A stretch of 35,763 bases of DNA from positions 1-35,763 of IMG/VR virus record IMGVR_UViG_3300038701_000950; one strand, given 5' to 3'. Source of the stretch: a virus. A program made the position numbers and the translations under genes. A model generated the notes under the pieces. The model made no database searches, was not told the origin of the DNA, and was given only the letters and a program-made list of their open reading frames with translations. Positions 1-35,747 of the stretch are shown here, in pieces; position 1 is the first letter of the stretch, and each line of letters begins with the position of its first letter.

Positions 1-158
1 GAAAAGAGGGAAGGGAAGGGAGAAAAAGAGGGGCGCAGTTTGGCAGCACCAAAAAAAGCGAGGCACTTTTAACGGTTTTCGGCCTCGTCGCCCTCGGTCA
101 CGGCCCCGGCTTTAACCGTTAGAGCGTCTCACCTAGTCTAACCGATTAACCGTTAAAG
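1..158. other. Left-end non-coding leader, possible part of the cos/packaging region
   Basis: No gene is visible here. Bases 1-33 are an uninterrupted purine tract. Bases 34-45 (CGCAGTTTGGCA) are repeated exactly at 35736-35747 near the other end. Just before the small terminase start there is a TTAACCG-rich stretch (about 141-156) related to the leader repeats of the leftward gene block. Lying next to the terminase genes, and opposite an HNH gene at the other end, this region is a reasonable place for a cos site, but no cohesive-end sequence can be proven from the window. Confidence 0.45.
34..45. repeat. 12-bp end repeat, left copy
   Basis: CGCAGTTTGGCA occurs here and again at 35736-35747. 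If the ends join, the copies lie about 60 bp apart, with a 16-base pyrimidine tract followed by a 33-base purine tract between them. The repeat may belong to a terminase recognition site, or it may mark an assembly junction. Confidence 0.5.
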
Positions 159-22962: not shown

Positions 22963-22998
22963 TTTAACCGATTAACGGATTAACGCAATACCTTTTTT
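22963..22998 (-). repeat. TTAAC leader repeat
   Basis: On the minus strand this reads GGTATTGCGTTAATCCGTTAATCGG and then TTAAA, three GTTAA units spaced 8 bp apart. It lies 10 bases upstream of the ATG of the 22953 gene. Near-identical copies lie at 26873-26919, 33617-33660 and 34632-34657, with a variant at 33395-33440, all directly upstream of leftward genes. It may be an operator or promoter. Confidence 0.8.
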
Positions 22999-23080: not shown

Positions 23081-24376
23081 TTATTGCGGCAACGGTGGCG
23101 GCGGGTCTTGCGCTCGCGCGACTTGCACGGGGCGCGGTTGCGGCTTCGGTATTGTCTCCGTTTCGAGCCTCATATTAGCGGGATAGTATTTCGCGCCTTG
23201 CTTAACGACCTTACCGGAGTTTATGAGGTCCATTTTAAGCGCGTAGTAATGTTTACCCGCGCGTCCCCAAGTCGCGGAGCAAGCTTCCTTCCATGCGCTG
23301 TCCTGCAATCCTTGGACCGGCAAGAGGTCGAAGAGGTCCGGCGCTCCGAATTCAGATTTAGACTTGCTCTTGTCTTGCGTGACCGCGCCGAAGATGTCCT
23401 CGGGGTCTTTGGAATCGTCCGGCCTCATAACCGGGAAGTCCCAAGAGACCACGAAGTCGGGAATGTCTGGAAGATAGCGAAGCTCGGACTCGACAACGAA
23501 AGAGCCCTTAGCTTCGTGCCGCGTCATCGTTAAGATAACGTCGGGGTCGCGAGCGAAAACGCCCGAGCCCGCCATACGGTCAATCGCTTCTTTGCCTGAC
23601 TGGACGCCCTTCGAGAAGTGAGCGCCGAAGATAACCGCCGCGTCGAGGTCTTTGCCGAGCTTCTCGATGTTCTCCATGAGCAATCCCATATCGCCCGCGT
23701 CGTTCTCTGAGAGGCCACCGAGAGCCTTGTAAATCGGATCGACGATAATCATATCGATATTTAACTCTTGCGCCTTGGCGCGTGTCGTGAGGACGCGGGA
23801 AATTACTTCGAGATCGTAGCAATGATTACGGAGAGTCCAAAAAAGAAAGTTATCCGGGAGGTCCATCGACCGAGCCTTGCAAACGCTGTCTAAGCGTTGC
23901 TCGAAAAATCCGTTAATCAGTTCAAAGTTTAAGTAAAGAACTCGACCGCGTCTCGTCGGGAGCCCCCACCATTCGAGACCGTTAGCGACGGACAAGCCGA
24001 GATCGATTAACGACCAAGACTTAAACGACTTCGAGCCGCCCGCTAGGACCATCTTACACCCGCGATGCAAGAGGCCATCGACGATCATCTCCGGGAGAAT
24101 GATCTCTTGTGGCGTGACGTCGCTTGCACGCTTGAAACCGGGGAGAGCGTCGTCGGTCGGCACGAAAGCCGCCGAGAGTAGCTTTTGAGCGTCGGAGCCC
24201 GCGAGAGGGGCGGGAGCGGCCCCCATTAGTGGGATTCCATCGCCTTCGACTGGTAAGACGGGAGGAAGGGCCGGAGGCGGAGAACTCGCGCGAGGTGGTA
24301 ACGCTGGAGCTTGCCCCGCGTTGTCCGGCCCGTCGTAATTCTCCGCGAGGTATTGGCGGAAATTTTCTCGGGACAT
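23081..24376 (-). CDS. RepA-like/RecA-fold replicative helicase ATPase
   Basis: The 431-residue protein fits RepA/AAA_25 hexameric helicase ATPases that unwind phage DNA at the fork. After a Pro/Ala-rich N-terminus (20-60) the RecA core shows Walker A GGSKSFKSW (113-121), a glutamate-bearing strand VLYLNFEL (147-153), Walker B DMIIVDPIYKALGG with Asp213, and the sensor FGAHFSKG. In Walker A, Phe replaces the usual second Gly of GxxxxGKS; related phage sequences share this. A winged-helix-like segment and a Pro-rich tail follow. It lies beside the primase and in the same block as the polymerase. A terminator follows it. Confidence 0.85.
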   Translation of the reverse strand: MSRENFRQYLAENYDGPDNAGQAPALPPRASSPPPALPPVLPVEGDGIPLMGAAPAPLAGSDAQKLLSAAFVPTDDALPGFKRASDVTPQEIILPEMIVDGLLHRGCKMVLAGGSKSFKSWSLIDLGLSVANGLEWWGLPTRRGRVLYLNFELINGFFEQRLDSVCKARSMDLPDNFLFWTLRNHCYDLEVISRVLTTRAKAQELNIDMIIVDPIYKALGGLSENDAGDMGLLMENIEKLGKDLDAAVIFGAHFSKGVQSGKEAIDRMAGSGVFARDPDVILTMTRHEAKGSFVVESELRYLPDIPDFVVSWDFPVMRPDDSKDPEDIFGAVTQDKSKSKSEFGAPDLFDLLPVQGLQDSAWKEACSATWGRAGKHYYALKMDLINSGKVVKQGAKYYPANMRLETETIPKPQPRPVQVARAQDPPPPLPQ

Positions 24377-24620: not shown

Positions 24621-25502
24621 TTACTTTCCGTTAAGAGTAAACTCCGAATTGTAATAAAGCACGGCTTGGTGCTTTTGGGTCTTTGCGTTAATCATGCCCG
24701 GCATTCTGGAGAACTGAGATTTAGACCATAGCGTCGGGTCCGCGCCTAACGCGCAAGCGTCGGAAAAGAAATCGGTTAAGAACTCGGGAGGGGCGTCTTT
24801 ACAATAAAACCAGCCATGAATTGATTTTCCTCCCGAATAGACCATTAACGCGAGCGGGAGCTTTTTTGAGAGGTGCGCTAAAATCGCCGCGTGTTCTTGA
24901 ATCGCTCCGGTGTCAAACTCGACGACTTGGTAAACTTTCGGTCCGGTGTTGTTCTCGGTGTGATCGGATACCGCGCCGTCTTTATTCGTGCCGACGAAAG
25001 CCGACATAGGAGACGGGTTGATGTATTCAAAATTGACGCCGTTAAGCGCGTAATCTCGAATCTCGTTTCTCATTCGAGTGACGAACTCAAAAGCGGAGTA
25101 ACCACCACAAACGAGATTAGAAGGCCGGTAAAGTGCTTCGAGGTAGAAAGCGGGGTCTTGCGCGAGCGTTGCTTCTTGCGAAGTCATCTCCCGGCCCTTG
25201 TCGAAGTAGGCCGCGACGATCTCCGCGCGATAGCTCTCCCCGAGCTTGGGCCATCTCTGAGTAACTTCTCCGCCTTCGGCTTTGCGCCGAGCGTAACGGA
25301 TAGCCCCTCGGATTTCACGGTCCGGGACTTGGCGCTCGTCCACGGTATTAGCGGCGGCGCGTATGAGGTCGAAGACTCGCTCGTCGGAGTTACCGTCTTC
25401 GATTAAGAAAGCGGCGGCGGCAAAGATTTCTTGATGAAGTCCTTTCGCTCGAATGTCCGCGCGTCTCGCCCATTTGCGAAGCTCTGATTTGAAAGAAGCC
25501 AT
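24621..25502 (-). CDS. Primase of the archaeo-eukaryotic (AEP) type
   Basis: The 293-residue protein fits AEP-superfamily primases, which start DNA synthesis by making a primer. A helical N-terminal domain (1-85, AAAFLIEDGNSDERVFDLIRAAANTVDE...IRGAIRYARRK) resembles accessory primase domains. The catalytic part shows metal-binding VVEFDTG (Glu195/Asp197), the nucleotide motif SGGKSIHGW (223-231, His229), and SRMPG with Arg266. It lies with helicase and polymerase genes in one leftward block. Relaxed assignment: it could also be a primase-polymerase. Its start lies 4 bases after the small 25507-25623 gene. Confidence 0.75.
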   Translation of the reverse strand: MASFKSELRKWARRADIRAKGLHQEIFAAAAFLIEDGNSDERVFDLIRAAANTVDERQVPDREIRGAIRYARRKAEGGEVTQRWPKLGESYRAEIVAAYFDKGREMTSQEATLAQDPAFYLEALYRPSNLVCGGYSAFEFVTRMRNEIRDYALNGVNFEYINPSPMSAFVGTNKDGAVSDHTENNTGPKVYQVVEFDTGAIQEHAAILAHLSKKLPLALMVYSGGKSIHGWFYCKDAPPEFLTDFFSDACALGADPTLWSKSQFSRMPGMINAKTQKHQAVLYYNSEFTLNGK

Positions 25503-25628: not shown

Positions 25629-26273
25629 TTAAAGTTCGTCATCATAGTTAACGCTTCTCTTCATCATGCTCTTAAAGGAGTCCATGTCGAACGGAGAGAA
25701 GCTTCCGGGCATTCCATATACCGGCTCGATTGTCCTCTCGGTCTTCTCGAACTCGAAGTCCCCCTCGATTCTCGCTTTGACATAGTCGAGAGCCTCGCGA
25801 CCTTGCTCGATTCGTGAACGCTCCGAAGCAATAGCGGAGAGCTTGGCGTTAATTCTGGAAGTGATGGGGTCGGAGCCTCGCTTGCATTTGACGCGCTTAA
25901 CCGACTTCTTTAGCTTGGCTTCCCGCTTTTCGAGCTGTCGCTCTTTGCGGTTCATCTCAGCGACGCCTTGACGTATTTCGTCGAGGACGTGTTTTGCCAC
26001 GTCCGAAGCTTCCGCGTTAAGGGCGTCTTCGATCATGGCTCCGAGAACTTCGTCGAGTCGGTTTTGCTTGGCCTCGTCAATGTCTCCGTGCAAATCGTAA
26101 AACTCGCGTTTCTCGGAATCAGATAGAACGACGTAAGCGCGGTTAAGCGCCTTGAATTGTTCCTCGTCCCCGCCTTTATCGGGATGGAGTTCTTTCGCGA
26201 AAGCGCGATACGCTTTTTTGATTTCGTCGAGCGTGGCGTCGCTATCGACTCCGAGAGTTTCGTAATGATTCAT
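25629..26273 (-). CDS. J-domain protein (DnaJ-like co-chaperone)
   Basis: The 214-residue protein starts directly with a J domain (1-65): YETLGVDSDATLDEIKKAYRAFAKELHPDKGG, with the HPD motif at 30-32, which stimulates host DnaK. The remainder is a long charged helical region (MNRKERQLEKREAKLKKSVKRVK) with no zinc or substrate-binding DnaJ domain, then an acidic tail. It could recruit host Hsp70 to replication complexes or virion assembly. ATG at 26273 is preferred; the open frame upstream overlaps the zinc-ribbon gene and has no J-domain content. Confidence 0.85.
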   Translation of the reverse strand: MNHYETLGVDSDATLDEIKKAYRAFAKELHPDKGGDEEQFKALNRAYVVLSDSEKREFYDLHGDIDEAKQNRLDEVLGAMIEDALNAEASDVAKHVLDEIRQGVAEMNRKERQLEKREAKLKKSVKRVKCKRGSDPITSRINAKLSAIASERSRIEQGREALDYVKARIEGDFEFEKTERTIEPVYGMPGSFSPFDMDSFKSMMKRSVNYDDEL

Positions 26274-26277
26274 CGTC

Positions 26278-26466
26278 TTAAATTTCTTCGGCTTCCTCTT
26301 GGCAGATAGGGCAGTAAACCGCATCGGCGCGATGGCGCTTGCCGTTCTTGCTGATTCTAACGCGGAGCATCCCGTAAGAGTATTCCTCGTCGCATGACTC
26401 GCAGTAAACCGGGGAGCCGCTTTGCTCGAACTCAATTCGAGTTTGTTTCTTGTTGCCGTCTTCCAT
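26278..26466 (-). CDS. Small zinc-ribbon protein
   Basis: The 62-residue protein has two Cys pairs, YCESC (residues 21-25) and YCPICQ (51-56), about 27 residues apart, as in rubredoxin-like zinc ribbons. It precedes the J-domain gene by only 4 bases and may work with it; separate zinc parts are a known feature of DnaJ proteins, but the link is inference. The ATG directly abuts the second copy of the 28-bp attenuator-like element. Confidence 0.65.
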   Translation of the reverse strand: MEDGNKKQTRIEFEQSGSPVYCESCDEEYSYGMLRVRISKNGKRHRADAVYCPICQEEAEEI

Positions 26467-26872: not shown

Positions 26873-26919
26873 TTTAACCGATTAACGGATTAACGCAATA
26901 CCTTTTTTCGATTTATTTT
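26873..26919 (-). repeat. TTAAC leader repeat
   Basis: Same element as 22963-22998, including the AT-rich flank AAATCGAAAAAAGGTATTGC on the minus strand. It overlaps the last codons of the DNA polymerase gene and lies about 50 bases upstream of the 26824 start. Confidence 0.8.
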
Positions 26920-28982
26920 TTGAAGCGGTCCGAAAGTTCCACTTTATCGCAAGCGATAGGGAGGCCGGTCGCCCATTCCGGCGCTTGGTTCATGATGTCT
27001 TTAAGCTCCGCCGCGCGTTCATGCGCTACTGCTTCGGGAACGACGACGACGGCTTCGTCATGGACGGTCCAGTTAACGCGAATGTCTGGAATCTTTAGGA
27101 TCTCGATTAGGCGAGTCGCGAAGACTTCCCGCGCGACGTGCTGGACGACGTTCTCGACCAAGAGCCCGCCGTAAATGTTTTTGTGATCGGTCGGAAAGCG
27201 AGAGTCTTTATTTAACCAAGCGTCAATCTTTCGCTTTTTGTATTTCTTCCCGTTCCGGCCCTCCTCTTCCCATCGGTAGACCTCGACGTCGAAGTAACGA
27301 ATCTGCGAGCCGCTCGGAGACGTGTAAAAGAAATGTCCGCCCTCGCATTTGTCCGCCGCGTTTTCCATCTGATGCCAGAAATTAACGACGAGCCCGTTAG
27401 AGCTTCGATAATCTTTAACGCTTGAAATAGCGCTCGGCATCTCTTGGATTTCGTGACGAATAAACGCTTCTTGAATTTCTGGATTTTTAGCGGGATTCTC
27501 TAACGCGCTAAAGAGTTGTTTCTCGGTCAAGATGCGCTCTCCGAATACATACGTTTTACGGTCCCGGTCGATTCTAAGACCGGCCATCGTCCGGGCGACG
27601 GTTACGAACGTATCAGCCCAAGCGCCGTATCCGAGACCGAGAAGACGCGCTTTCGCTAGTGAGTATTGAAGCGGGTTGACTTCTTTAAGCGGTCGAGGAT
27701 CGACGTAACCCATCGAGGCGCGAGCGTGCGACTCGTAAGGCGAGATCCCCTCTCGGCACGCTTGCAAGAAGGCGTGGTCTCCAATGAGCCAATGAAGGAC
27801 GCGCGGCTCGATCTGGTTTAGGTCGGCAATCGCGAAGACGTAACCCGGAGGCGGGCGAAGATGCCCACGAAGCGAGACTCCCTCGACTTCTTGTCGATTG
27901 AGGTTGAGAAGACGAAGTCCTTTTTGAGACTGCCAGCGTTTAGTGTGAGGCGACCCGCAATACTTCATCTCGAAAGGGACGCGCCCGTCTTCCTTTCGTC
28001 GGCGCTCTGATAGAACGGTTAGCGCTTGTGTGATCTGGTTCGCTTGCGTGTATTTGCGGACAAGCTCAATCCAAGGGTATTTATCACCGTGCTTTAAGTG
28101 CCAGTCGTCGGCGTCCTCCGAGGCTTTAGCGATGGACTCGGGCGGAATGATACCTACCTCGTAACAAGCCTTATTGAAAGCCGTTTGAGAGGCCGGAGAA
28201 TACTTATGCCCCCACGGGATTTGATACTGTAAATCTAATTTGTGCTTTTCGAGTTTGGCCATGCTCTCGGCGATTTGCTCGTCGTCTACATAGATTCCAT
28301 CCCATCCTTGATAGCGCGTCATTCGCGAGAGCGTGCGCTCTTGCTCGCTCCACTGGTTAGAGACCTTTAACCATATCCAAAGACAACCGCGCCCGTCCTC
28401 CCCGGCGTAGTCGCGCATCTCTTCGGGAGTCGCGTCGCCGGTCTTCATCTTGTCGCGGACGGTCTTGTCCATCTTCTCGCCGAGTATCGCGTTAGCCGCC
28501 CTTTCGAGCGACCGGCCCGCTTGCAAGAAAGCCGTCATGTCCGCCGTGCATTCCCACGTAGAAGCGCGAGCCGTGGTAACGACTCTTTCGAGTTCGAGAA
28601 GGCGCTTCCATACCAATTCATCGAAAGCCGCGTTATGGGAAAGCCATTTAATCCCGTTAATCGAATCCCACGGAGCCGCGCTCGGGTTTCCGACCCATCG
28701 CCAATAATTGACCCCGTCGAAGTATTCCAGCGCGACGAGGTAGGCGTCGAAAGCGATATTGTAAACGTAGCTCCACGCGGGCATTTTCGCGAGCGAGTAG
28801 GTCGAAGAGTAATACGTCTCGAAGTCAACTGCGACGACGGGCTCGTTACTGACTGGAGGGAAAGAAGGGCCGGGGACTTGACGCCACGCGGTATCATCTT
28901 CGATCTTGCTTCCGCTCGTTTCGTGAGTTGCGAAAAGGAGATTCTGTCCTTGCTCGTCGCATGGCGTGAACGTCTTGCTCAT
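26913..28982 (-). CDS. DNA polymerase, family A (Pol I-like, with 3'-5' exonuclease)
   Basis: The 689-residue protein should replicate the phage genome. Exonuclease motifs: VAVDFETYYS (Asp53/Glu55), HNAAFDELVW (Asp121) and YAGEDGRGC (Asp196 region). Polymerase motifs: A, IADLNQIEPRVL (Asp387); B, SLAKARLLGLGYG (Lys444 region); C, VHDEAVVVV (641-643). No 5'-3' exonuclease domain is present, as in most phage enzymes. Motif B follows motif A closely, as in many short phage polymerases. It starts 6 bases after the 58-residue gene and shares the block with primase and helicase. Confidence 0.95.
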   Translation of the reverse strand: MSKTFTPCDEQGQNLLFATHETSGSKIEDDTAWRQVPGPSFPPVSNEPVVAVDFETYYSSTYSLAKMPAWSYVYNIAFDAYLVALEYFDGVNYWRWVGNPSAAPWDSINGIKWLSHNAAFDELVWKRLLELERVVTTARASTWECTADMTAFLQAGRSLERAANAILGEKMDKTVRDKMKTGDATPEEMRDYAGEDGRGCLWIWLKVSNQWSEQERTLSRMTRYQGWDGIYVDDEQIAESMAKLEKHKLDLQYQIPWGHKYSPASQTAFNKACYEVGIIPPESIAKASEDADDWHLKHGDKYPWIELVRKYTQANQITQALTVLSERRRKEDGRVPFEMKYCGSPHTKRWQSQKGLRLLNLNRQEVEGVSLRGHLRPPPGYVFAIADLNQIEPRVLHWLIGDHAFLQACREGISPYESHARASMGYVDPRPLKEVNPLQYSLAKARLLGLGYGAWADTFVTVARTMAGLRIDRDRKTYVFGERILTEKQLFSALENPAKNPEIQEAFIRHEIQEMPSAISSVKDYRSSNGLVVNFWHQMENAADKCEGGHFFYTSPSGSQIRYFDVEVYRWEEEGRNGKKYKKRKIDAWLNKDSRFPTDHKNIYGGLLVENVVQHVAREVFATRLIEILKIPDIRVNWTVHDEAVVVVPEAVAHERAAELKDIMNQAPEWATGLPIACDKVELSDRFKK

Positions 28983-29169: not shown

Positions 29170-29751
29170 TTAAATAAGGTTATCGCTAACGAGCCCGCAG
29201 TCGAGGACGTGGAGCGCGTCGGCTTGGTTATCGTCGAGCGTCCAAGGCGCTCTCTTTGTCGGCTTGTGTGAAACCCATTCTTGACCGGGAAAGCGTTCGA
29301 GCGCGGCGTCGATCATCGCTTGCTTGTCCGAGTTGAGCTTTCCGCATCCGGTGGCGTGCTTCTTAACGGTAGCAATGTGAAACCCTTTAACCGGTATGTC
29401 GTAAATCGAAGCGACTTCGAGCGTCACGACTTTAAAACCGACGGCGACTTGCAGCGTGTTCCCTCCGCTCTTGTTCGACCCGGCGGGCTCCTCGTAATAA
29501 ATCGAGCGTATTCCGTGCGTCTCGATGAGATCGATTAAAAATTGCCTATACTTGTTAAAGCGCAATCCGGGATGGTCGGCGGGCTTGTTCTTGGTCGCGG
29601 CGCTTGGCGTTACGACTTTCATTTCAGCGACTCCAGAGAATAAACTAAAATGACGTCCAGCAATACACCGGTTAGACTTGTTCGTCCTTACCGCGAATCC
29701 GGCCCTCGTAGCGAGATCGAGACCAAGGGCCGGGAGATTTGGCTCGCTCAT
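29170..29751 (-). CDS. RuvC-like Holliday junction resolvase
   Basis: The 193-residue protein fits RuvC/RNase H-fold resolvases that cut branched DNA before packaging. Likely active-site acids: Asp12 in GLDLATRAG, Glu87/88 in SIYYEEPAG, and the Asp173/174/178 cluster in TLDDNQADAL. The segment KGFHIATVKKHATGCGKLNSDKQAM matches the RuvC DNA-binding helix region. It overlaps the preceding nuclease stop by 4 bases. Confidence 0.85.
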   Translation of the reverse strand: MSEPNLPALGLDLATRAGFAVRTNKSNRCIAGRHFSLFSGVAEMKVVTPSAATKNKPADHPGLRFNKYRQFLIDLIETHGIRSIYYEEPAGSNKSGGNTLQVAVGFKVVTLEVASIYDIPVKGFHIATVKKHATGCGKLNSDKQAMIDAALERFPGQEWVSHKPTKRAPWTLDDNQADALHVLDCGLVSDNLI

Positions 29752-31349
29752 TTCTTTTTTGCTGCGGATTTACGAGCGGTCTTCTTAGCGGCTTTTTTCG
29801 CCGGTGCCTTCTTAGCTGCTTTTTTCGCGGCTTTCTTTGCAACCGTCTTCTTTTTAGGTGGTGCCTTTTTCGCGGCTTCATCCCGTTCTTTGACGAGACG
29901 CGCTTCGCGTTGGCGGTAAGTGTTCGGCTTGCGTATCTCGATTCCATTGTGGAGCTTCTTGTTTAAAACCTCCGCTTTGATTTTGAAGGGAACGTCGTTA
30001 TCGGCACGCGACAAAATAAACGCGTCTTCCTCTTCAGTCCACGCGCGGCGCTTACTCGGCGTCTTCGCGGCTTTTGGCTGGACCGCTTCGGCTTGCTCGA
30101 TCTCTTCCGAGAGTCCAGCGACAACCGCTTCTTTCTCGTCCGCGATTCCAGCTTTAACCGGGTCGCTCTCGACGGTTACGTCTTCCGCGTCATCGTTTTC
30201 AAGTTGCGTCGCGAGTTCCGCTTTCTTGGCGTCGCGCTTCGCCTTGGCCTTCTCTTTCTTTTGCTCGTTCTTAGACTCGAAAAGTCTATCGACGTCGATA
30301 AGGTCGTTATTTCCGGCGGGCGTGGTTACGTCATAAGCGAGCTTTAACGGATCGGTCGAAGCAATGTCGGTTATACCGCGAACAAGCGAACGCGTCGGGA
30401 CGTGATCTTGCAAGAGGAGAGGAAACTCGACTCGATGCGGCGCGTAATCGTTTTGAAGCCTCCAGATAGCAGAAACGAAAATGAGCTTATGCCATTCGAT
30501 TTCAAAGTTAACCGGCGTATAAGCTTCGACGTGATAACGGCCCTTTTCCGTCGAGGAGATAAAGACGTTAGCGCCATAAAGACGCTTAACGACCTCGGTT
30601 TCGGTCACGCCGAAGAGCGTCGCGAAATAGGTCGCGCCGTAAGCGACGATTTGCGTCGCTTGGTTGTCGTAGGCTTTAACCTCGACGCCCGCACTCGTCT
30701 TGCGTGTCTTGTAGTCGAGGATACCGATTCCGACGCCCGCTTCCCATAACCTACGAAGTCCGTCGAAATCTCGCGACTTCGCAAGCTCCGGCATTCTTTC
30801 CGCGCCGGGTCCATAGGCGAAGGCGACGTCAAGCGTCCCGGCGAAGCCGTAACGCTGGTTAACGATAATCGTCTCCGTTTCGATGAAGACAAAACCCTTG
30901 CTCTCGATCCATTCGATTACCGGGTTACAATACGCTAAGAGATCGGTCGGGATTAAGGGCCGGACGCCTTGCTCGCTTCGTTGCGCGGCGGGTTTAAAAT
31001 AATGCTCCATTGCGTCGTGGAGTTTTGTTCCGAAATCGGCGGCGGCTTTGACCTCAGAGTTTGCCTCTTCAAGAATTCGGTTAACGAAATACTCGTCGCT
31101 TTCCCCGGCCTTCCTTTGCAGGGTGAGCGCGGCGTTAATGGCTTTCTTGATCTGCCATTTAATCAAACCCGGTTTCGAGAAACTTCCGAGCAACTCGGAG
31201 ACCGAGCAATAAAGCCCGAGCCTTCGAGCGTCCCTTAACGAGGTCGGTCTTTTCCCGTCGCCGTCGGCGCGTGCGATTTCATGAAACGGGACACCGTCGG
31301 CGGTATACCAGTGTTGAGAGCTTATCTGTGGAGCGGTTAAAATAGCCAT
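29748..31349 (-). CDS. PD-(D/E)XK (RecB-type) nuclease fused to SANT/Myb-like domain and H1-like tail
   Basis: A 533-residue protein of three parts. Residues 45-330: a RecB/Cas4-like nuclease with GTKLHDAMEHYF (His111), GTLDVAF (Asp174), ILDYKTRK (Asp212, Lys214) and DNQATQIVAYG (Gln230, Tyr237). Residues about 433-485: RRAWTEEEDAFILSRADNDVPFKIKAEVLNKKL, which reads like a SANT/Myb-type DNA-binding helix bundle. Residues 493-533: Lys/Ala repeats (AKKAAKKAPAKKAAKKT) as in histone H1-like tails, shared with the 33362 gene. Likely a recombination or end-processing exonuclease; the fusion is unusual. Confidence 0.8.
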   Translation of the reverse strand: MAILTAPQISSQHWYTADGVPFHEIARADGDGKRPTSLRDARRLGLYCSVSELLGSFSKPGLIKWQIKKAINAALTLQRKAGESDEYFVNRILEEANSEVKAAADFGTKLHDAMEHYFKPAAQRSEQGVRPLIPTDLLAYCNPVIEWIESKGFVFIETETIIVNQRYGFAGTLDVAFAYGPGAERMPELAKSRDFDGLRRLWEAGVGIGILDYKTRKTSAGVEVKAYDNQATQIVAYGATYFATLFGVTETEVVKRLYGANVFISSTEKGRYHVEAYTPVNFEIEWHKLIFVSAIWRLQNDYAPHRVEFPLLLQDHVPTRSLVRGITDIASTDPLKLAYDVTTPAGNNDLIDVDRLFESKNEQKKEKAKAKRDAKKAELATQLENDDAEDVTVESDPVKAGIADEKEAVVAGLSEEIEQAEAVQPKAAKTPSKRRAWTEEEDAFILSRADNDVPFKIKAEVLNKKLHNGIEIRKPNTYRQREARLVKERDEAAKKAPPKKKTVAKKAAKKAAKKAPAKKAAKKTARKSAAKKK

Positions 31350-32885: not shown

Positions 32886-33362
32886 TTACTTTTTGGCGGG
32901 TCCACGTTGCGACGGCTTCCAAAGGACGGCTTTGTCTCCCTTGGAATGCCGCTCGGAATGCGCGATAACCCAGCAAACGCGCTTTAGCTGCCCTTCACTA
33001 GAGGCCGGGTAATCAGGAGCGAGGAGCTTAACCGCTTCGGAAACTGAATACTTGCCTTCGGACATGAGCTTCCGGGCGTCGGCACAAACGCCGGTTGTCG
33101 CGAGACGTGTCTTAGGTTCGTTTTTCTTGGTAGCGGTTGCTTTTTTAGCCGGAACTTTTTTCGCGGCTTTCTTTGCTACCTTTTTAACCGCTTTTTTAGC
33201 TGGAGTCTTTTTAGCTACTTTCTTCGCGGCTTTTTTGGCTGGAGCTTTCTTAGCGGTCTTCTTAACCGCTTTTTTAGCGGCCTTTTTTGCGGGCGCTTTT
33301 TTGCGGACTGTCTTTTTTGCGGGAGCGGGCTTAACCGCTTTCCCTGTCGTCTTTGTGGACAT
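32886..33362 (-). CDS. Histone H1-like Lys/Ala repeat protein with C-terminal domain
   Basis: The 158-residue protein has an N-terminal region (about 10-80) of repeated PAKKAAKK-type units, like the C-terminal tails of histone H1 and the bacterial H1-like proteins, which bind DNA non-specifically. A separate C-terminal domain follows (ARKLMSEGKYSVSEAVKLLAPDYPASSEGQLKRVCWVIAHSERHSKGD), perhaps a small helical specificity domain. The same tail type ends the nearby nuclease. A role in compacting or protecting phage or host DNA is inferred from composition. Confidence 0.7.
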   Translation of the reverse strand: MSTKTTGKAVKPAPAKKTVRKKAPAKKAAKKAVKKTAKKAPAKKAAKKVAKKTPAKKAVKKVAKKAAKKVPAKKATATKKNEPKTRLATTGVCADARKLMSEGKYSVSEAVKLLAPDYPASSEGQLKRVCWVIAHSERHSKGDKAVLWKPSQRGPAKK

Positions 33363-33616: not shown

Positions 33617-33660
33617 TTTAACCGATTAACGGATTAACGCAATACCTTTTTTCGATTTAT
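33617..33660 (-). repeat. TTAAC leader repeat
   Basis: Full copy including the AT-rich flank, upstream of the 55-residue gene and overlapping the stop of the 33657 gene. The first 30 bases match 26873-26902 exactly. Confidence 0.85.
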
Positions 33661-33965: not shown

Positions 33966-34619
33966 TTAGTTAGGAATTACAGAGAAACAAGGGCTCGCGT
34001 CTCCGTGAGACGTTACCTCTACCAATCGGAGCAAACCCGCACTTTCGAGTTCCCTTAACGCTTCGAGGATCGGATTAGGTTCTTCACCTCTAGGCTCGTA
34101 ATATTTGCCGTTGTCGGATCGACCCTCCGAGAGTCGCTCGACGTGGCCTCGATAGTAATCGACGGCTAACTTAGAAAGGGCCGGTAACGGAACACGCACC
34201 CGGAGCCCGGCGCGGATATGGTCGCCCGTGTTACCGGGGCAAGCTTCCTCCATCTCGAAAATATGGTCGTGGACTGGATGCCACGCGCCGCCCTCTTCAA
34301 GGTCTTTGAACTCCGCTTCAACCGGCAACGCGGAGAGCGTTAGTTTTGCCTCGGGGTCTAACTGGTTAAGTTCTCTCCACTCCATTTTAACGGCGGTTTC
34401 CTCGGGCTCGCTCGGGGTGAACTCACCGCACCAATCTGACGCGGTAACGTGCGGGAGCGGGTCTTCTGATTGCGGGATGCCTCGGGCGCGGGAGGTAAGA
34501 GGAGGGAAACGGCGGCAACGGTAGCCGTCGAAAGCAGCGAGCCCGCCTTTGAATTGAGGGCCGGTAAAAGCTTCCGCGAAAGCGCACTCGGCGCAAGTTG
34601 GATTAGTTTGATTGCTCAT
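33966..34619 (-). CDS. Cys-rich N-terminal protein, first gene of the leftward block
   Basis: The 217-residue protein begins with a Cys pattern: CAECAFAEAF, YRCRRFPP and DWCGEF (first 65 residues). That CxxC...CRR.PP...DWCGE order recurs in many small phage and plasmid proteins and probably binds zinc or iron-sulfur. The rest is mixed, ending in a possible winged-helix-like segment (PILEALRELESAGLLRLVEV). It lies right after the origin-like region, so it is likely expressed first. Confidence 0.55.
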   Translation of the reverse strand: MSNQTNPTCAECAFAEAFTGPQFKGGLAAFDGYRCRRFPPLTSRARGIPQSEDPLPHVTASDWCGEFTPSEPEETAVKMEWRELNQLDPEAKLTLSALPVEAEFKDLEEGGAWHPVHDHIFEMEEACPGNTGDHIRAGLRVRVPLPALSKLAVDYYRGHVERLSEGRSDNGKYYEPRGEEPNPILEALRELESAGLLRLVEVTSHGDASPCFSVIPN

Positions 34620-34631
34620 GGCGAAAGCACG

Positions 34632-34657
34632 TTTAACCGATTAACGGATTAACGCAA
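34632..34657 (-). repeat. TTAAC leader repeat
   Basis: Core matches the other copies (TTTAACCGATTAACGGATTA then ACGCAA on the plus strand). The flank differs (GAGAGAAAGATTTATTTC). It sits 12 bases upstream of the ATG of the first leftward gene. Confidence 0.8.
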
Positions 34658-34787
34658 GAGAGAAAGATTTATTTCTTTTAGGCTTGACGGGCGGTCTCCG
34701 GCCTCTCAATTAAGAAGCGTGCAGTCGGTCCCGCTTAAACGCGTTTCGCGCAATGCGTCGAGCTTTAACGCTCTATCCCGCTTCATC

Positions 34788-34865
34788 GTCGGACTCTGAG
34801 GAATCGCGGACAGCGACGGGCTCCGCCCTTGGGCGGTGGGTGCCTGTCGCGTTTAGTCCGTTACT
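34788..34865 (+). ncRNA. Structured inverted-repeat element, left copy
   Basis: 78 nt that can fold as three stacked helices: CGGAC/GTCCG (34807-34811 with 34856-34860), GCGACGGGC/GCCTGTCGC (34813-34821 with 34842-34850, one G-U), and CCGCC/GGCGG (34823-34827 with 34832-34836) closed by CTTG, with a TGGGT strand in the inner asymmetric loop. The inverted partner at 35017-35096 keeps flanks and loops but changes paired bases together. Whether it acts as RNA or as DNA (origin, packaging) is not known. Confidence 0.6.
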
Positions 34866-35016
34866 CAAATCAGAAGCGTAAAGCTTAAACGCGCAACGCT
34901 TCAAAGCAGAAGCAAACCGGCCTTCTAATAGAGAGGAGCCTTTTCGCTTAAATTTTAAGCTCTTAAATTATTACGCTCTTGCGCGCTTAAATTATTTAGA
35001 GACCGACGGAAAGGGA

Positions 35017-35096
35017 AGTAACGGACTAAACGCGAGGGGCACCCACCTCCTTATCAGGAGGAGCCCCTCGCTGTCCGCGATTCCTTAGAGTCCGAC
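35017..35096 (-). ncRNA. Structured inverted-repeat element, right copy
   Basis: On the minus strand this matches the left copy: the first 25 bases differ at one position, and the last 15 are identical. Middle stem GCGAGGGGC/GCCCCTCGC (35071-35063 with 35040-35032 as read on the minus strand) replaces a C-G pair of the left copy by G-C and a G-U by G-C. Inner stem CCTCC/GGAGG replaces a G-C by T-A. The T / TGGGT internal loop is retained. Confidence 0.6.
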
Positions 35097-35127
35097 GTAA
35101 GAGAGGGATTGACCGTTGCGCTATACT

Positions 35128-35517
35128 ATGGACATGAAAGCAAGAGGACATTCGAGTAAACGATTCAAAGGAGGACGCGACCACGCACCAAGGAAATATA
35201 AAGCGACAAGCGAAGAGCAAATCTTGGCGAGGAAGTTTCGTAGCTCGGGGGCGTGGCAAAAGAAGACCCGGTCTATGCTTATGCGCTATCCCATTTGTTT
35301 CGATCCATTAAGGAGGCATGAGAAGACCGGAAGACCGGAGGAAGCGGAAGCGACTCACCATATTGAGAGCGTGGCGACTGCTTATCATTTGAGATTAGAA
35401 GACCGGAATCTAGTAACGCTCTGTCGAGATTGTCACGACGCAATCGAGCAACTCGTTAGCGTCGGAGAAGATACCATGCTTTTATTTAAGACCCCTGTCC
35501 ATGATTGGAATGAGTGA
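35128..35517 (+). CDS. HNH endonuclease (packaging-associated)
   Basis: The 129-residue protein has an HNH core: THHIESVATAYHLRLEDRNLVTLCRDCHDAIEQL, with the His pair, central Asn and the CRDCH knuckle. The first knuckle is reduced to one Cys (YPICFDPLRRH), so zinc binding may be altered. In HK97-like phages an HNH protein encoded beside the terminase genes aids cohesive-end cutting; if the window ends join, this gene lies directly before terS. ATG at 35128 or 35134 is likely; a TATACT box at 35122-35127 would place the transcript start at about 35134, which would fit a leaderless message from the second ATG. Confidence 0.85.
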   Translation: MDMKARGHSSKRFKGGRDHAPRKYKATSEEQILARKFRSSGAWQKKTRSMLMRYPICFDPLRRHEKTGRPEEAEATHHIESVATAYHLRLEDRNLVTLCRDCHDAIEQLVSVGEDTMLLFKTPVHDWNE

Positions 35518-35735: not shown

Positions 35736-35747
35736 CGCAGTTTGGCA
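35736..35747. repeat. 12-bp end repeat, right copy
   Basis: Exact copy of CGCAGTTTGGCA at 34-45. A 16-base pyrimidine run follows to the end of the window and would join the 33-base purine run at its beginning. Confidence 0.5.

Follow-up and report, generated by a model that had tools for sequence, protein, structure and literature searches.

Genes and features around the inverted repeat

The window, by which we mean the whole 35,763-nt stretch of viral DNA analyzed here (IMG/VR record IMGVR_UViG_3300038701_000950), carries an inverted repeat of two facing copies and a spacer at 34767-35117. It is intergenic and lies between divergent leftward replication genes and a rightward HNH-TerS-TerL module. 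The leftward module encodes a helicase, a primase, a DnaJ-domain protein (25629-26435, minus strand, PF00226), a family A DNA polymerase (26913-28982, minus strand, PF00476, phrog_17), a RuvC-like resolvase, and an exonuclease. The left neighbor of the pair, which is the first leftward gene (33966-34619, minus strand), has weak relatives and belongs to no known family. On the right, the HNH endonuclease gene (35116-35517, plus strand, phrog_144, PF01844) likely starts at 35131 or 35137; joining the contig ends would place TerS, TerL, and structural genes after it.

When the genome was aligned to its own reverse complement, 34767-35117 was recovered as a single 351-bp inverted repeat (E 2e-22). 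It scored 64, compared with 19 for the second-best inverted repeat, and is the sole significant one in the genome. The repeat is thus far beyond chance. The sequence-only reading had placed the first copy at 34788-34865 (plus strand) and the second at 35096-35017 (minus strand), and these coordinates are right. Copies of about 80 nt are also correct as far as they go, but the limits were drawn too narrowly, as homology extends out to 34767 and 35117. No further copy is present in the whole record. Similar DNA was not found in phages or viral contigs, and scans of viral contigs with the element pattern gave chance matches only.

The spacer has an AT-rich core at 34935-34999 with about 28-30% GC, compared with 53% for the genome, which makes it a candidate unwinding region. 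40-nt stretches of similar AT-richness also occur elsewhere in the genome. Three TTAAATT motifs lie in the core (34948, 34963, and 34987), and a 14-nt repeat pair is present in the spacer, but there is no clear iteron array. GC skew does not turn at 35 kb.

Two of the replication proteins were analyzed further. The primase (24621-25502, minus strand) carries the motifs VEFD, SGGKSxH, and RMPG, which are common to annotated archaeo-eukaryotic primase (AEP) primase-helicases of phages. It remained below the cut-off of the Pfam RepB_primase profile (13.7 bits vs 24.3; 12.9 bits on a second run), and a profile search against PDB sequences returned nothing relevant. Hence, the fold was needed to place it. 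With the AlphaFold2 model (pLDDT 88.9), the first-ranked Foldseek match was 3h20, the RepB' primase of RSF1010 (E 2.5e-3). VIA-align Z scores were 11.7 for 6zp9 (cyanophage S-2L PrimPol), 11.4 for 3h20, and 11.2 for 3h25 (RepB' with initiator DNA), and eukaryotic and archaeal primases came about 1 Z unit below these top structures. The model firmly supports an AEP fold and places the protein closest to RepB' by a small margin. The helicase (23081-24376, minus strand) is a RecA-type replicative helicase of the AAA_25 family (PF13481, E 9e-27). IncQ RepA also matches PF13481 and thus belongs to the same Pfam family.

Some further repeats were seen in the genome. Four exact copies of a 26-bp motif (minus-strand sequence TTGCGTTAATCCGTTAATCGGTTAAA) are present (22963-22988, 26873-26898, 33617-33642, and 34632-34657), and each is followed at a short distance by the start of a leftward gene. 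Another copy, which is degenerate, lies ahead of TerS (136-157, plus strand). The motif is built of period-8 GTTAATC units and is possibly a promoter, operator, or translation signal. No exact match to the 22-nt core was present in other viral contigs, and no relatives were found by that marker. Near both contig ends, CGCAGTTTGGCA is present (35-46 and 35736-35747), and these copies would be about 60 bp apart if the ends were joined; it is possibly a terminase or cos-related repeat. A search with TerL found only relatives of 28-37% identity in viral contigs and none in genome contigs. Lys/Ala/Pro-rich, histone-H1-like repeats (AAKKAPAKK) are encoded on the minus strand in a small protein and in the C-terminus of the exonuclease (32886-33362 and 29748-30000).

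Fold of the two copies and paired substitutions

Read toward the spacer, each copy consists of a 25-nt flank, a 9-bp stem, an asymmetric T/TGGGT internal loop, a 6-bp stem, a short terminal loop, and a 15-nt flank. In copy 1, the 5' flank (34788-34812) and the 3' flank (34851-34865) enclose stem arms at 34813-34821/34842-34850 and 34823-34828/34831-34836, with the internal loop formed by T34822 and TGGGT at 34837-34841. In copy 2, the flanks are at 35096-35072 and 35031-35017, the stem arms at 35071-35063/35040-35032 and 35061-35056/35051-35046, and the internal loop comprises T35062 and TGGGT at 35045-35041. The 5' flanks of the copies differ at one position and the 3' flanks are identical, in agreement with the sequence-only reading, and the T/TGGGT loop is kept in both copies, as had been stated there. 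The terminal loop differs; it is TT or CTTG in copy 1 and GATA (35055-35052) in copy 2.

The predicted RNA fold of 34780-34870 (copy 1) has -39.1 kcal/mol (z -2.4) and that of 35012-35104 (copy 2) has -40.3 kcal/mol (z -3.1). In these predictions, each copy forms a single long hairpin to which an outer helix may be added. Good folding was likewise predicted for the outward strands, with z values of -2.5 and -4.5.

With the terminal loop excluded, seven of the eight substitutions between the copies are located in the stems, where three pairs are altered on both sides, one on one side, and none is broken. In the 9-bp stem, the changes are C-G to G-C and G.T to G-C. In the 6-bp stem, they are G-C to T-A and C-G to T-A. 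The first three had been listed before and were verified as pairing-preserving (the G.T pair was then written as G-U), while the C-G to T-A change was missing from that list. With seven substitutions scattered randomly over the stem, none of the 15 pairs would be broken with P ~2e-4, and sliding the pairing register destroys the signal. A shuffle control, which is a weak one with two sequences only, gave the observed pairing in 62 of 500 shuffles.

The earlier claim of selection on a fold therefore stands in that all seven stem substitutions keep pairing, but it is unproven with two copies and no outside homologue. We regard the pairing-preserving divergence of the two sequences as suggestive of such selection, not as proof. 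Compensatory pairs can also come from hairpin-templated repair, and two copies alone cannot tell selection from such correction. The internal loop and the flanks, which were kept as well, would argue for selection.

As had been suspected, the element belongs to no named RNA family; Rfam gave no match at the gathering score or at E up to 10. Neither tRNA nor tmRNA was found in the sequence. We also considered an RNA anti-CRISPR, as Racr RNAs mimic CRISPR repeats (PMC10651486), and judged this unlikely for 80-nt paired copies. The covariance-model check suggested in the sequence-only reading was run with the two copies against about 1.9 Mb of relatives and did not extend the element. Beyond the copies in the window, it returned one weak match in L133 (E 0.32), on a hairpin after the helicase of that phage, which was taken as chance-level.

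Two features bear on which strand is active. The G.T pair is a wobble in the inward sense only, as it becomes A.C on the opposite strand. Stable DNA tetraloops include cCNNGg and GNNA. The loops of copy 1 (CTTG) and copy 2 (GATA) presumably fit these types in the inward sense, which weakly favors that sense.

Known origins and inverted repeats beside related primases

The RepB' primase of RSF1010 initiates at ssiA and ssiB, with one hairpin per strand (PMC4434180; PMC6925257). These sites are 40 nt long, with the hairpin at nt 7-27 and GTG at 31-33 (PMC4434180). The IncQ1 plasmid pSTMDT12_S was used as a positive control. It contains an inverted pair (5820-5869/5922-5971) with CCTTTC-CCCCTACCCGAAGGGTGGGGG-CGCGTG and, on the opposite strand, CCTTTCCCCCTGCCGCGCAGCGGTGGGGCGGTGTG. 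The pair is unannotated in the record, and we identify it as the probable ssi sites from the published description. The two sites agree in their flanks and outer stem, and where the inner stems diverge, they do so by paired changes. The phage element resembles ssiA/ssiB in that each strand carries one hairpin site, the flanks are conserved, and the stems are compensated. Its replicon likewise has a RepB'-fold primase and an AAA_25 helicase. There are also differences. An ssi site has about 40 nt, whereas the phage element spans about 80 nt and includes an asymmetric internal loop, and the GTG found 3' of the hairpin in ssi is lacking from the phage 3' flanks GTTTAGTCCGTTACT (inward) and TGTCCGCGATTCC (outward). 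IncQ sites are oriented outward and have iterons nearby, while the phage genome has no clear iterons and gave no match to RepC, although the positive control for RepC also gave none. Unlike the IncQ system, the phage encodes its own polymerase.

The origin of pRN1, which is served by an AEP, offers a second comparison. It is a stem-loop of low sequence conservation inside conserved flanks; it remains functional at a new position, and stem-loops resembling it are found after such genes in phages as well (PMC4234260). As in origins of this type (e.g., phage BIP-1), the window combines a structured element, with a variable stem and conserved flanks, with an AEP replication protein. The pRN1 type, however, has one stem-loop of about 100 nt directly after the replication gene and an SF3 helicase, whereas the phage has two facing hairpins about 10 kb away.

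Inverted repeats were scored beside related primases. A scan by primase alignment yielded 80 phage loci, 75 of which were scored together with five named phages (n = 80). A locus was counted as positive when an inverted repeat with E<0.01 lay between -30 and +450 nt relative to the primase(-helicase) gene end. Positives numbered 44 of 80; when the other ORFs of these loci (200 aa or longer) were scored as controls, 6 of 278 were positive. The repeat after the primase gene was the best of its locus in 41 cases, with 2.6 expected. At 60% identity, 19 of 27 clusters had a positive; clustering at 40% collapses the loci to eight, two of them positive, so deeply independent cases are few.

A second scan, by polymerase, covered 21 loci in which a separate primase gene is followed by a helicase ORF of about 420 aa. 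An inverted repeat directly after this ORF was present in 13 and was top-ranked in 12. Many of these repeats are facing arms around an AT-rich core, and the 40-nt minimum GC is 0.12-0.35 in most. Six loci (L141, L145, L150, L153, L157, and L160) have facing arms and an AT-rich core after the helicase with a 40-nt minimum GC of 0.12-0.20; the arms of L141 and L150, the two read, contain GGGTGCTGC units. These arms look like textbook origins of uncultured phages. In the related phages L133 (7600-7700) and L140 (4610-4710), the helicase is followed by an array of three repeats. All three repeats differ between the two phages by a change of GGGAACCAGTC to GGGAACAGCAG, with the same loop CCCCTATAG and surroundings in both. 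Such a concerted change in sequence would fit protein-bound iterons better than hairpin pairing. Hence, the family association backs an inverted repeat as origin more than a hairpin as primase site.

The repeats of the relatives are thus tied to related primases and often consist of facing arms around an AT-rich core, as in the window. They differ from the window element in being often iteron-like and beside the gene, and the covariance search revealed no sequence similarity to it. In the window's own sub-branch, no repeat follows the helicase. Among relatives with a near-complete contig, G005 is the closest (polymerase 44%, primase 42%, helicase 57%). Neither it nor the more distant AAA_25 relatives G006 and G007 showed a facing pair on the contigs read. 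The next closest relative, G001, is a fragment without the equivalent region.

Candidate functions of the pair

The main rival to an origin, which we rate as unlikely overall, is that the copies are 5' leader RNAs of divergent transcripts starting in the AT-rich spacer, which would serve the early and late operons as a cis antiterminator or a different kind of leader switch. In HK022, two related put RNAs of about 70 nt lie downstream of PL and PR (PMC9378689), and the phage locus is similar to putL/putR in having two related folded elements of about 70-80 nt in a divergent early region. Facing copies in such an intergenic region would give both outgoing transcripts the same (outward) sense, and the good folding of the outward strands agrees with this. 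In HK022, however, promoters are known upstream of each put element, whereas a consensus scan of the spacer found no sigma-70 site; with looser spacing, the best promoter matched 9/12 positions and was matched or beaten in 41 of 236 genome windows. The first leftward gene has its own copy of the 26-bp motif (34632-34657), and its transcript may therefore start downstream of copy 1. The outward sense is also opposite to the one favored by the G.T pair, which it turns into an A.C mismatch, and a put RNA comprises two stem-loops while the phage element is one long hairpin.

Paired regulator binding sites at an early/late switch, read as double-stranded DNA, are an improbable explanation. The position between divergent modules would suit operators and the near-identical flanks could be bound DNA, but 80-nt copies are long for this purpose, and a double-stranded site needs no paired stem changes, yet all seven substitutions keep pairing. 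HNH-terminase neighbors are typical of cos phages, and the order HNH, TerS, TerL to the right of the pair, if the contig ends are joined, would suit a cos or pac recognition site for the terminase. We nevertheless find a packaging signal very doubtful. The pair flanks HNH on its early side and, with the contig ends joined, would be about 0.8 kb away from TerS; the CGCAGTTTGGCA repeat near both contig termini is a likelier cos region, and the element is absent from terminase relatives. There is only a slight chance that the pair is a MITE-like insertion, or a functionless inverted duplication whose hairpins were kept by template-switch correction. Terminal inverted arms with no gene inside have this appearance, but a single pair is present in the genome, no similar DNA occurs in phages or viral contigs, and template correction would tend to erase the T/TGGGT loop, which both copies keep.

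We tentatively consider an origin, or the core of one, with twin primase or initiator hairpins at the early/late junction to be the most likely function of the inverted pair. Of the three possibilities offered by the sequence-only reading, replication-origin hairpins have gained from the RepB'-fold primase, the RepA-family helicase, the signature shared with the IncQ ssi pair, and the association of inverted repeats with the primase family, whereas twin small RNAs and a packaging signal are left without positive evidence. The uniqueness of the repeat in the genome, its AT-rich core between divergent early and late modules, the compensated stems with their conserved flanks and internal loop, and the experimental precedent of pRN1 also speak for an origin. 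Against an origin stand the nearest relatives without a detectable pair, the distance of about 10 kb between the pair and the helicase gene, the iteron-like look of many repeats in relatives, the missing GTG and iteron array, the primase score below the Pfam cut-off, and the flat GC skew.

We infer binding, priming, strand choice, and origin activity at the pair as follows. An initiator or the helicase would open the AT-rich spacer, and each hairpin would extrude on its own strand. The RepB'-like primase may then recognize the conserved flanks, the stem base, and the internal loop and make one primer beside each hairpin, and the family A polymerase would extend both primers. In RSF1010, the primer is made 3' of the hairpin (PMC4234260). 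If the same holds on the inward strand of the phage, synthesis would proceed outward in both directions. If activity is on the strands whose copies read 5' to 3' toward the spacer, the two leading strands would diverge, one moving left across the early genes and the other right across the late genes.

A more specific proposal, which is possible but which we would not expect to hold, is a tailed-phage origin built like the plasmid ssi pair, in which two primase-read hairpins on opposite strands at the early/late junction start two leading strands without a lagging-strand primosome. If this is true, the structure would act at the DNA level, and only the pairing, the flanks, and the asymmetric internal loop would be under selection. 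The origins of most environmental phages are unknown. If the origin assignment is right, an inverted hairpin pair with compensated stems together with an AEP primase would be a sequence-level signature for primase-read origins in uncultured phages, and IncQ plasmids, the archaeal plasmid pRN1, and phage replication would be tied to one way of strand start. The strong link between AEP primase genes and inverted repeats (44/80 vs 6/278) can be tested on its own.
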